The translations under genes were made by a program, and so were the position numbers. A stretch of 64,000 nt of DNA. It comes from a virus. Shown in pieces: positions 3,718 to 46,218 of this stretch (positions within the stretch are counted from its first letter, which is position 1; each line of letters opens with the position of its first letter). The stretch lies in IMG/VR virus record IMGVR_UViG_3300039191_000223, positions 38,700 to 102,699 of that record; one strand, given 5' to 3'. Under the pieces are notes generated by a model that was not told the DNA's origin, ran no database searches, and saw nothing but the letters and a program-made list of their open reading frames with translations.

Positions 3718-3753
3718 AATAATGTTCTCCAGTTTGAAAGTATTTATAAGAGT

Positions 3754-3830
3754 TGGTGGGTGTAGCAGGGTTTGAACCTGCGAACCTCCACGATGTCAAC
3801 GTGGCGCTCTCCCAACTGAGCTATACACCC
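3754..3830 (-). tRNA. tRNA-Val (GAC)
   Basis: Full cloverleaf: acceptor GGGTGTA/TACACCC, anticodon arm CCACG TTGACAT CGTGG, encoded CCA. Confidence 0.95.
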
Positions 3831-3842
3831 ATGGAAAGCGGC

Positions 3843-4385
3843 TTACGCCGCTTCCTTGGTTACTTCTTCGTTCGTCAGCAATAACATACGCGATGCGTAT
3901 AAATGGAGCGACGCTAGCGTTTCAATTGTAATACCAAAAGGTTCTATGAATTTTGATAACTTCATGCGATCCCTATTGATAAACCATAACTGGTGTTCAT
4001 TGACTTGCTTATTGCTAGTATCATGATCTACCAAAAACTTGGCTTCATTAATTCTCAAATACAACTTTTCCTTCGCACTCGTAAAGCCGTCCTTACGATT
4101 AGTGGGTGACGGTTTAAATGTCACAGACAAATCTTTACCAGCCAAGAGACAGAAGAGCAACTGCTGACTTGCGTCTAAGTGGCAGGTCTTTGCGGTGTGC
4201 TTCTGGGGGCGCATAGCCTTGTCGATAGGACACCATGTTCTAATCTCAGTCTCTTCGTAAGTTGGCCTGTGCTTACCACTGTTGATGTAGTCTGCCCAAG
4301 CTTTGCGAAATGCCTCCACCAAAACCCAAAATAGCACCAAAAAACTCACCCATAGTAATTCTCCTTTGTCAGTTGCTAAGAGCAT
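3843..4385 (-). CDS. membrane-anchored hypothetical protein, 180 aa
   Basis: A short hydrophobic segment at residues 11-24 (LWVSFLVLFWVLVEAF) suggests one N-terminal membrane helix. The remainder contains several Cys and is soluble-like. Function not recognised. Confidence 0.55.
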   Translation of the reverse strand: MLLATDKGELLWVSFLVLFWVLVEAFRKAWADYINSGKHRPTYEETEIRTWCPIDKAMRPQKHTAKTCHLDASQQLLFCLLAGKDLSVTFKPSPTNRKDGFTSAKEKLYLRINEAKFLVDHDTSNKQVNEHQLWFINRDRMKLSKFIEPFGITIETLASLHLYASRMLLLTNEEVTKEAA

Positions 4386-4530
4386 AGTAGCATACCATAA
4401 TGTATAAGTCTAGAGAGAATGAAAGATAAAATCATGAATATGGTCATAGAGCCAACTGCTAGTACGAAATGCCCCAGTTTAGTGGGAGTGTAATCGTCTT
4501 CATTAAAAACAGCTTAGTTGTTTTCATTGT

Positions 4531-4605
4531 TGGTGCTCCTACACAGACTTGAACTGAGAATGTGACCTTACCAAGGTCGTGTTTTACCCGTTAAACTATA
4601 GGAGC
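4531..4605 (-). tRNA. tRNA-Thr (GGT)
   Basis: Acceptor GCTCCTA with a matching 3' strand, loop TTGGTAA, encoded CCA. One mismatch in the anticodon stem. Confidence 0.85.
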
Positions 4606-4618
4606 AGACTAATGGCAT

Positions 4619-4921
4619 TTAGCCGCCGTGACTAAACACATCATCTGGGTATGTTCGTCCATGGTAATAGTTGACCGGTATATCGAACTCTACCGTATTT
4701 TCACTACCATCTCTAGAGACTACTTCAAAAGAAAAGCGTTCATTGACGAAATCAATACCTGTAAAGGTATGACTGTCTAGTCTACCAACTGACACCATAC
4801 TGTCAAGCTTAGATTTGACCTGTTTTACAAATTGTTTTTGCGTATCAGGATCATGGAGCGCTTCAGCATATGTACTCCGCAGATGCTTAATGTAACGTTG
4901 GTACTCTTCTTCTGGACTCAT
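4619..4921 (-). CDS. hypothetical protein, 100 aa
   Basis: Soluble acidic protein (MSPEEEYQRYIKHLRS...) with an AAGG ribosome site upstream. No family recognised. Confidence 0.6.
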   Translation of the reverse strand: MSPEEEYQRYIKHLRSTYAEALHDPDTQKQFVKQVKSKLDSMVSVGRLDSHTFTGIDFVNERFSFEVVSRDGSENTVEFDIPVNYYHGRTYPDDVFSHGG

Positions 4922-4929
4922 ATTAAACC

Positions 4930-5016
4930 TTACATTTTTATTTTTTTAGGCTTTGAGATTTGAAAAGTGCTAGGCCCTGAACAAGTTTCGTATTGTTCTT
5001 CTGTTCCACCAAACAT
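4930..5016 (-). CDS. small ORF, 28 aa
   Basis: ATG at 5016 is preceded by GGAAG at good spacing and ends at TAA (4930-4932) just before the next gene. The same frame stays open upstream through a protein-like stretch after TAA-TGA, so this may be the end of a decayed gene. Confidence 0.3.
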   Translation of the reverse strand: MFGGTEEQYETCSGPSTFQISKPKKIKM

Positions 5017-5044
5017 ATTTATTGCTTCCACAATAAAATAACCA

Positions 5045-5248
5045 TCATCCGTTTTTGCCCATCATTAACCAAAAATCTTCGCCTTCTCTAAACTTAACAG
5101 CATAATCAGTCTGGACTGATTCTGCCATTGCGTAATCGTAGATAGTACCATCATTCACAAGCCCTTGTAGGATCATGAGTCCTTTTTCTACTTCCTCAAA
5201 TATAATTGCGTCTCTCACTGCGTCAAATTTTTCAGGTATTATTTTCAT
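5045..5248 (-). CDS. hypothetical protein, 67 aa
   Basis: Starts with ATGA overlap on the stop of the release-factor gene, so the two are probably translationally coupled. Acidic, no recognised domain. Confidence 0.6.
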   Translation of the reverse strand: MKIIPEKFDAVRDAIIFEEVEKGLMILQGLVNDGTIYDYAMAESVQTDYAVKFREGEDFWLMMGKNG

Positions 5249-5922
5249 AATAGATTCATTCCACCTTTCATTATTTTTGTTGCTTTCGCAGTCTTACCTG
5301 TTTGATGGTCAATTACTTGATCATCCTGAAAGCGATATGTTCTTATTTTGTCACCACGCATACCAGAGCCCCGTTGTTCCCTAGTTATTTGTGATGTTTG
5401 TTTAGACTGGTCATTATATAACATTTCGCTAATCTGTGTCAATAGACTTTGCTTGGCCTCAGCATAATTGTTTTTACGGTTCCTACCTTGACGAGCTTCA
5501 CAAAGTCCAGTGGGCGTGTGGGTGAGGCGACAAGAGTTCTGCTTTTTATTTCTATGTTGCCCACCTTTACCGGTTCCTGAAAACCACTCAACGTGGAAGT
5601 CTTTATCATCGAGGGATAGATAAGCATCGTTTACTGATAACTGATTGGGGTCAACAACGGATACTGTAACCGTAGAAGTGTGGACTCTACCACGTTTCTC
5701 AGTTGGAGGGATTCGTTGTATTCTGTGCCCACCGGCTTCATTATCAAGGCCACGTAGGTCTTTACCAGTGATGTCGAGTTGTGTAAAGCTTGGATGAACT
5801 TTAACGTCACACTTTCAACCGTAGGTAGTTGATAGGCGGGAGTATGCTTCAGCTAGATCGTTGACAAATAGTTTGGAATCGTTACCACCCTCTGCCGGGT
5901 GAATTTCTAGAATGCGTTTCAT
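5245..5922 (-). CDS. RF1-type peptide chain release factor with in-frame UGA at codon 36
   Basis: From ATG 5922 (AGAGGAAAG upstream) one frame runs to TGA 5245-5247, broken only by TGA at 5815-5817. The product has the GGQ peptidyl-hydrolysis motif (GTGKGGQHRNK, about residue 121) and AGGHRIQRIPPTEKRGR, which aligns with RF1 AGGHRVQRVPATE. PPT occupies the RF1 PxT stop-recognition tripeptide, not RF2 SPF. Domain 1 is absent, giving about 225 aa against about 360. The UGA follows TTYG and precedes KCDV, where RF1 proteins commonly have Trp (GWKVE). Translation therefore needs UGA readthrough; a pseudogene is the alternative. Confidence 0.75.
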
Positions 5923-5945
5923 TTTACTTTCCTCTAGTATTAATG

Positions 5946-11129: not shown

Positions 11130-12410
11130 TTATCTAAATCGTTTGGAACCATGGACCCAAATAACTAAGGCCCATCGTTCACCTTCTTGCATTGGTGTTA
11201 CTTTATGTAGACAATAACTTGGGAACAGTGCCAAAGCACCCCGATCCCGCGAAGCATTTAGCATTTCACCGTTGCTATTGACCATCAAATCACCACCAGT
11301 ATATTGATCAGGTGCGGTTAGTTGCACCGACACACTAATTTTCCGCGTAGAACTTGTCATGTTTCCCACGTCAACATGCCACTCATAGTGGCCGGGGTCT
11401 TCGCCAGAATCGTAATGTAGAAGCTGGAGTTCATGCGTAATCCCCATGATTTCATAATCAAAGTGTTCCGCGTTTACAATACTCACAATACGCGCTAGCT
11501 TATCAAATGCCCAACGTGTATCATCGTTCATTGGAATTTGATATAAGTCTACATTGCGAATATCTTTCTTAATTAGACCATCAGCACCAGCACCTATACT
11601 GCCTTCTTCCGCGTACATGGATGATGCAAACCCAATGATCCGTTCACACTCTTCTGGGGTAAACGCAAGGTTTGGATGTGTTGTAGACGTAATACTAGCT
11701 AAACCGGGAATCTGTAGGTCCCAACTTGGAATCATTACACCGTTATAAATCGGGAATACTCCTTGTCGCGATTGTTTTACGTTACCAGTGTCAGGACTTT
11801 GCTGCCCTACAGTTTGGTTTTGATTTTCTGCCTTAGTGTCGGCACCCAGCCCAAGCTCAGGTCTGCCGTCAAATTTATTATCTTTGTGTGGTCCGTTGGC
11901 GTCTACGAAATGAAAAAATACTTGGCACTGCCATTCACCTTTAAATTCTGGACGCCAATGTACAAGGTCTTCTCCACGGTATAGCAAAAAGTCACCAATC
12001 TTAAGATCAACACGTTTCCCGCGTTCATCGTTAGGGTCAGCCGCTAGATAAATTGGCCAGACATTCATGCCATCAAATCCCAGCGTTAGTGTACCGCTAA
12101 TCTCACATGATGGGCGATCAGTATGTCGCGATAGCACTTCACCCGTTCGATAGATACGCGCATAGGTATATGTTGGGGTCAACTCTTTTCCAATGTGCTG
12201 TCCAATTGGCTCAGCAAGTTTTTCTAACAATCCATCAAACACTGGATCACCATAAATCGCTTCCGACTTAGGACACTGGTCATCCTTCACCATTTTACCA
12301 TCTTCACACAATTGGAACATACGCTTTGTTAGATTTTCACATAAATCTTTGGATAGCACATCATGCAACAGAACATATGAATTATTCTCAAAATATTCTC
12401 TGGGCGTCAT
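11130..12410 (-). CDS. 2-oxoglutarate/Fe(II) oxygenase with two catalytic-like domains, 426 aa
   Basis: The C-terminal domain (about 240-426) is prolyl-4-hydroxylase-like: HVD iron ligands in YEWHVDVG, distal His in YCLHKVTP, and a double-stranded beta-helix with GGDL. The N-terminal half has a second set (SRHTDRP and LVHWR), so this looks like a tandem fusion. Such enzymes hydroxylate protein or small substrates in phages, but the target is unknown. Its start overlaps the stop of the upstream sulfotransferase gene. Confidence 0.78.
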   Translation of the reverse strand: MTPREYFENNSYVLLHDVLSKDLCENLTKRMFQLCEDGKMVKDDQCPKSEAIYGDPVFDGLLEKLAEPIGQHIGKELTPTYTYARIYRTGEVLSRHTDRPSCEISGTLTLGFDGMNVWPIYLAADPNDERGKRVDLKIGDFLLYRGEDLVHWRPEFKGEWQCQVFFHFVDANGPHKDNKFDGRPELGLGADTKAENQNQTVGQQSPDTGNVKQSRQGVFPIYNGVMIPSWDLQIPGLASITSTTHPNLAFTPEECERIIGFASSMYAEEGSIGAGADGLIKKDIRNVDLYQIPMNDDTRWAFDKLARIVSIVNAEHFDYEIMGITHELQLLHYDSGEDPGHYEWHVDVGNMTSSTRKISVSVQLTAPDQYTGGDLMVNSNGEMLNASRDRGALALFPSYCLHKVTPMQEGERWALVIWVHGSKRFR

Positions 12411-26464: not shown

Positions 26465-26539
26465 TGGCAGGGGTGCAGGGACTCGAACCCCGATTTGCAG
26501 TTTTGGAGACTGCTGCTCTGCCAATTGAACTACACCCCT
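26465..26539 (-). tRNA. tRNA-Trp (CCA)
   Basis: Anticodon arm GCAGT CTCCAAA ACTGC, acceptor AGGGGTG/CACCCCT, encoded CCA. Confidence 0.94.
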
Positions 26540-26656: not shown

Positions 26657-26728
26657 TGGCATGCACACACGGAATCGAACCGCGCTACTGAAGTTTGGAA
26701 CCTCTGTTGCTCCCAGAGCCACACCCAT
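26657..26728 (-). tRNA. degenerate tRNA-like, Trp (CCA)-type loop
   Basis: Ends in CCA and has a T-arm, but the acceptor has a mismatch, the D-loop is only three bases and the anticodon stem around TTCCAAA is imperfect. Possibly a tRNA pseudogene next to a good tRNA-Trp. Confidence 0.5.
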
Positions 26729-38691: not shown

Positions 38692-38752
38692 GTCGGGGAA
38701 GCTGGAATCGAACCAGCGGTGTCAGTTTTACAGAGTTGTTACTTCTCTCTAT
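38692..38752 (-). tRNA. tRNA-like fragment
   Basis: T-arm GCTGG TTCGATT CCAGC, TTCCCCG, A, CCA: a complete 3' half. I cannot find a 5' acceptor partner or anticodon arm. A consensus promoter (38754-38782) lies directly upstream, so the element is probably transcribed. Confidence 0.4.
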
Positions 38753-46142: not shown

Positions 46143-46218
46143 TGGTGACTCGGGTGGGACTCGAACCCACAACCAGCGATATTAGAAGTCGCGGCTCTGC
46201 CCCTTGAGCTACCGAGTC
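46143..46218 (-). tRNA. amber-suppressor-type tRNA (anticodon CTA)
   Basis: Counting from a regular cloverleaf: acceptor GACTCGG/CCGAGTC, D-stem GCTC/GAGC, anticodon arm GCGAC TTCTAAT ATCGC, 5-base variable loop, T-stem GTGGG/CCCAC, A, encoded CCA. Positions 34-36 are CTA, which reads UAG. Positions 31/39 are a C-A mismatch. The alternative TCT (Arg) reading needs a badly mispaired stem. Amino-acid identity unknown. Confidence 0.75.

Follow-up and report, generated by a model that had tools for sequence, protein, structure and literature searches.

A conserved early stop codon as a putative termination-sensing gate in an RF1-like release factor gene of large phages and bacteria

Why should a phage keep a stop codon near the start of a gene whose product is itself predicted to terminate translation? 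This question is raised by a short gene for an RF1-like release factor (RF) on a stretch of viral DNA of 64,000 nucleotides (positions 38,700 to 102,699 of the IMG/VR record IMGVR_UViG_3300039191_000223; hereafter the window), the frame of which is interrupted by a TGA at codon 36. Comparison with relatives from phages and bacteria indicates that this stop is a conserved part of the gene, and we consider it rather probable that it acts as a gate on an accessory RF1-like factor that senses the state of termination, the sensing being the conjectural step.

The minus strand encodes the gene, the features of which are collected in Table 1. A single frame of 226 codons runs from the ATG at 5922 down to 5245, and its only TGA codons are codon 36 and the final one; the plus strand of this region has many stops. 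The original prediction had described this frame, with GGQ and PxT motifs and the TGA at codon 36, without naming a strand, and it was confirmed. The assignment to the RF1 type is borne out by both motifs and by matches to the RF1 model and to RF1 structures. Translated with tryptophan at TGA, the protein matches the prfA model with E=7e-49 and 167 bits, which is below the NCBIfam cut-off of 423 because domain 1 is absent, and by sequence it matches solved RF1 structures over domains 2-4. An AlphaFold model, made from 51 family sequences, has a mean predicted local distance difference test score (pLDDT) of 93.4, and its top matches, with a template modeling (TM) score of about 0.83, are ribosome-bound RF1 and mtRF1a. 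The decoding residues of the family (Q, PPT as PxT, and HTS) are RF1-like, and a loop near the decoding site reads AEGGxD versus GxGGxE, with Asp consistently replacing Glu, which is part of the family signature AEGGxD[SA]K. The TGA at codon 36 falls on the conserved tryptophan of the RF1 GW motif, just before a strand of domain 2, and termination there yields 35 residues without any functional motif. That UGA stands in place of tryptophan had been predicted, and sequencing reads with TGG or relatives with a residue other than tryptophan had been named as contrary evidence; in the alignment the relatives keep TGA and the outgroup has tryptophan. The second TGA, at codon 226, is TGG in all other relatives, which have a conserved C-terminal tryptophan, and it is followed by AAA TAA; this TAA is probably the true end of the gene. 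A nucleotide search of phage records gave no match, and all matches of a protein search had less than 60% identity.

A lone stop within a frame usually points to a sequencing error, a pseudogene or a genome-wide recoding of UGA, but all of these are hardly conceivable here. An alignment search of IMG/VR yielded 367 relatives, and the best 80 that were kept (49-100% identity) all have TGA at the same codon and no further in-frame stop. The search patterns were placed in the C-terminal half of the gene, and therefore the presence of the TGA was not selected for. The identical gene sequence is found in three assemblies, that of the window and two others, and the TGA is retained at the same codon in contigs with 56% (G003) and 53% (G004) identity, which rules out a sequencing error. 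Downstream of the TGA, the median ratio of nonsynonymous to synonymous substitution rates (dN/dS) is 0.11 (78 pairs), which indicates that the frame beyond the stop is under purifying selection. Judged from these comparisons, the gene is neither an error nor a pseudogene, and the claim of programmed recoding instead of a defect is upheld by the conservation of the TGA.

The standard code is used elsewhere in the genome. Six phage contigs of 84-364 kb, which add up to about 1.3 Mb, were compared across frames, and only best-frame matches were retained. Conserved coding across TGA was found in the RF gene of each of the six contigs and at no other site, a seventh hit being a gene end; no conserved coding across TAG was found, and the hits across TAA were gene ends or tRNA genes. 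As the RF gene is the sole site of conserved coding across a stop, the six phage genomes are not recoded. Ordinary genes in these phages commonly terminate at TGA, and the stop usage together with the six-contig comparison rules out a genome-wide recoding of UGA or UAG (a code 4 phage).

The nucleotides around the gate are under constraint, which was analyzed with 51 divergent representatives at 75% identity. The base following TGA is A in 45 of them, G in three, C in three and U in none, compared to U after 192 of 580 ordinary TGA stops in the six phage contigs (Fisher p=4e-9, which is optimistic). Lysine directly after the stop is encoded by AAG in 23/23 cases (family usage of AAG 43%), threonine by ACT in 12/15 (family usage 28%), and glycine directly before the stop by GGC in 31/48 (family usage 36%). 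The stop context of the relatives is characterized by Gly, mostly GGC or GGT, before the stop and by ACT, AAG or GCT after it, with U never at position +4. Two other routes to a product were ruled out. Internal restart is not compatible with the lack of a conserved start codon: ATG is absent between the UGA and GGQ in 65 of 79 relatives, and in the window gene the first possible ATG, GTG or TTG after the stop does not occur before codon 160. A selenoprotein is contradicted by the lack of relatives with Cys, by tryptophan at the site in outgroup RF1s and in the viral member L343, and by the lack of a conserved downstream hairpin.

The family is not confined to phages. A scan of bacterial genomes revealed 71 loci, many of which are family members. 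Members such as those from Thalassospira, Jiella, Gemmobacter and Rhodovibrio have an in-frame stop at the phage position, and others such as those from Nannocystis, Minicystis, Achromobacter anxifer and Novimethylophilus have a +1 frame change at CTT TGA. In homologues from bacteria and other phages the stop is retained within the same stretch of about 17 codons, with differing modes of recoding. Parsing based on hidden Markov models included 293 loci, with loci found by several scans counted repeatedly; clustering at 95% identity leaves 181 of them, and clustering at 75% leaves 114. A single in-frame TGA is present in 220 of the 293 loci (at codon 36 in 206), a +1 frameshift at TGA in 36 and at TAG in 10, and the remainder have in-frame TGA+TGA (8), TGA+TAG (3) or TAG (1), are indel cases (2) or have no stop (13). 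CTT precedes the stop in all 46 frameshift homologues (36 TGA, 10 TAG), most of which have a Shine-Dalgarno (SD)-like GGGAG or GGAGG 3 nt upstream in the fashion of prfB, and TAA is not used at any frameshift site among the parsed loci. The 13 loci without a stop comprise seven ordinary RF1s, one RF1-like gene of a huge phage (L093), two distant actinobacterial genes and three true exceptions. Related RF genes with one or two in-frame TGAs at codons ~39-52 were also observed in the huge phages LR745206, LR756504, LR756501 and LR756502 (L089-L092).

A maximum-likelihood tree, computed by a quick method from the C-terminal half without the gate site, groups the family into one clade with support 94 that is separate from RF1; of its 109 rows, 104 are gated. 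This tree requires about 20 changes of gate type, an approximate number because the support of many forks is weak. The UAG frameshift gates are dispersed over the tree, and one, from Hahella (L251), lies inside a clade with UGA readthrough. The retention of the gate through about 20 changes of its type indicates that the gate outlives its mechanism. The bacteria with the gene also encode full-length RF1 and RF2, and therefore the RF1-like factor is accessory.

How might such a gate work? Most ribosomes would stop at the UGA of codon 36 and release a useless 35-residue peptide. When termination is slow, owing to a shortage of free RF2 or a plentiful UGA-reading tRNA, waiting ribosomes would insert a residue and finish the factor; we infer both the readthrough and the residue, most likely tryptophan. 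The finished factor, with its RF1-like codon head, would take over termination at UAA and UAG, RF2 would be freed for UGA, and the gate would close, a negative feedback via UAA, the codon common to RF1 and RF2. UGA gates would report a shortage of RF2 and UAG gates a shortage of RF1, and in both cases the product would relieve termination. We likewise infer the specificity for UAA and UAG, an opening of the gate that tracks RF availability, and a benefit to phage or host. It has been described that RF depletion by apidaecin causes stop bypass via misincorporation and frameshifting (PMC7544508). The original prediction had tied the opening of the gate to limiting RF2 or abundant tRNA-Trp, which turned out to be too narrow for the whole family of phages and bacteria, since with two recoding mechanisms and two stops (UGA and UAG) an explanation by RF2 alone or tRNA-Trp alone misses some members. 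The wider proposal is that of a new accessory RF family of large phages and bacteria, in which the conserved early stop is a sensor of termination capacity, UGA readthrough and frameshifting at CUU-UGA or CUU-UAG are interchangeable, and a backup RF is turned on when the normal ones fail; we regard the chances for and against this proposal as balanced.

Several points weigh against a termination sensor. RF1-type heads should not read UGA, and therefore the feedback would be indirect in UGA-gated members but could be direct in those with a UAG gate, and a single mechanism may not fit all. Ungated members exist, namely three viral ones (L334, L340, L343) and two from actinobacteria. A conserved downstream RNA structure that stimulates readthrough was not found, and the p-values of the codon statistics are optimistic because the sequences are related. 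Furthermore, UCA tRNAs are present in contig G009 alone and tRNA-Trp is absent in some contigs, and a phage suppressor tRNA is not universal. Direct autoregulation following the logic of prfB, in which the factor recognizes its own gating codon (UGA or UAG) and closes the gate when it is abundant, would fit the RF1-type head of the UAG-gated members, the prfB cassette that the frameshift members share, and the consistent changes near the decoding site (AEGGxD for GxGGxE). It is nevertheless doubtful, because Q, PxT and HTS are RF1-like and predict no recognition of UGA, and most members are UGA-gated.

The gate could also be a constant brake without any sensor, by which low fixed readthrough or frameshifting keeps an RF without domain 1, which would be toxic if abundant, scarce. 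Overexpression of RF2 is toxic in B. subtilis, and that of RF1 less so (PMC12421855), and the equal usability of several stops and recoding types is expected if low output alone matters. A weak start codon or ribosome binding site would be simpler, but 104 of 109 rows have retained the gate, an RF2 cassette that responds to the RF2 level was evolved or acquired, and the frameshift sites use only stops that are read by one host factor, never UAA, all of which makes a mere brake unlikely. We regard it as distinctly improbable that the gate is a switch for the infection stage, which is opened late by accumulating UGA-reading tRNAs of the phage (tRNA-Trp variants or UCA tRNAs). The window phage has two tRNA-Trp genes, one with a 4-bp anticodon stem, and G009 has two UCA tRNAs, but such tRNAs are not universal in gated phages, bacterial and frameshift members need none, and UGA is a sense codon in no other gene of the six contigs.

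Table 1. Features of the RF gene and tRNA-Trp genes in the window.
Feature	Position	Strand	Remark
Short RF1-like release factor gene, domains 2-4, without domain 1, putative UGA readthrough	5239..5922	-	Probable true stop TAA 5241-5239
Putative gate: TGA in frame as codon 36, where RF1 has its conserved Trp	5815..5817	-	
Recoding context GGT-TGA-AAG	5812..5820	-	
Shine-Dalgarno-like AGAGGAAAG upstream of ATG	5927..5935	-	From sequence
PPT codon-recognition motif (RF1 PxT type), codons 72-74	5701..5709	-	
GGQ peptide-release motif, codons 120-122	5557..5565	-	
Second TGA, codon 226, at the C-terminal Trp position	5245..5247	-	From alignment with relatives
tRNA-Trp(CCA), ordinary form, candidate near-cognate UGA reader	26465..26539	-	
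Second gene resembling tRNA-Trp(CCA), 4-bp anticodon stem with an A-A mismatch at the closing pair, GU-rich acceptor	26657..26728	-	

The first tRNA-Trp of the window is not of the Hirsh type, which was ruled out by G24 and A9, both wild type. The second tRNA-Trp-like gene is possibly a UGA suppressor or a decayed gene, an assignment that is uncertain; a 4-bp anticodon stem has been associated with UGA reading (PMC13092985). The two UCA-anticodon (UGA-reading) tRNAs of G009 adjoin each other at 199793-200005 (L120-L121), have A73, and lie beside a gene for transfer-messenger RNA (tmRNA). ARAGORN predicted tmRNA genes in G003, G004, G007, G009 and G014, with tag ends of the ...LAA type. A well-formed amber (CUA) tRNA is encoded at 46143-46218 on the minus strand of the window, and similar ones in G004, G007 and G014, despite the lack of any TAG-crossing gene in the comparison. 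Immediately upstream of the RF gene lie two RNA ligases (PF09414; 6878-8065 and 8779-9444, minus strand) and a guanylate-kinase-like gene. RNA ligases are present in 14 of 17 gated phage contigs, not consistently adjoining the RF gene, and no conserved operon partners of the RF gene were found beyond near-identical contigs. The Novimethylophilus member (L293) adjoins a kinase-phosphatase-RNA ligase (Pnkp-like) gene at 3720-5933 on the plus strand, with an ochre (UUA) tRNA nearby at 12256-12331. The Gemmobacter member (L248) sits among 20 arrayed tRNA genes together with an integrase, in what is probably a mobile element.

The autoregulatory +1 frameshift in prfB, the RF2 gene, is the classic case of such regulation. 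The family shares with prfB an early in-frame stop that interrupts a class-I RF gene, and its frameshift homologues have the same CTT-TGA cassette, but it differs by the RF1-type head, the absence of domain 1, and the position of the gate inside domain 2. The window gene is not a +1 frameshift gene with SD-CTT-TGA of the prfB type, because the same frame continues after the TGA. UAG gates are a further difference, as there are none in 8,164 prfB genes (PMC12421855); this census of 2025 with 12,753 genomes found neither a prfB gate with TAG nor a regulated prfA (PMC12421855). RF1 itself (prfA) has the same fold, GGQ, PxT, and the decoding residues Q and HTS, but the family lacks domain 1, has the signature AEGGxD[SA]K and forms a separate clade, and prfA is not autoregulated. 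RFH/PrfH is also a class-I RF with the bacterial fold and without domain 1 (PMC1586002), but no recoding gate has been described for it. Membership of the window gene in PrfH was ruled out by a prfH model score of 36 bits versus a cut-off of 167 and by the lack of an rtcB operon; RtcB is absent from the contig of the window and present in 2 of 17 phage contigs. The class-I RF of Mimivirus and Megavirus (R726/mg280) is a viral RF in which readthrough occurs at an early UGA, for which tryptophan has been proposed (PMC3521657), but it is of the eukaryotic/archaeal eRF1 type, has a second, frameshift stop, belongs to amoeba viruses, and is not homologous. Phages with recoded stop codons also have in-frame stops in their genes and encode RFs and suppressor tRNAs, whereas here a single gene is affected and the remainder of the genome uses the standard code. 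Studies of huge phages have mentioned RF1 and RF2 genes, but not this feature. Besides the mimivirus RF, no viral RF with readthrough was found in the open-access literature, nor was any published account of the form of readthrough seen here, in line with the novelty that had been claimed for it.

At a time when no RF gene had yet been sequenced, it was considered that scarcity of an RF might lead to readthrough of an early in-frame UGA in its own gene. Atkins et al. stated in 2016 that in-frame readthrough in bacterial RF2, as well as a UAG/RF1 counterpart, was unknown (PMC5009743). The family appears to supply both, an RF with in-frame UGA readthrough and a UAG-gated RF1 counterpart. Gene finders with the standard code will overlook or split such genes. 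Members occur in cultured bacteria (Nannocystis exedens DSM 71, Gemmobacter caeni DSM 21823), and therefore the gate is testable. The family provides a natural series of versions of one regulatory gate, rebuilt with differing stop codons and modes of recoding, and suggests that large phages may monitor or manage the termination capacity of their hosts.
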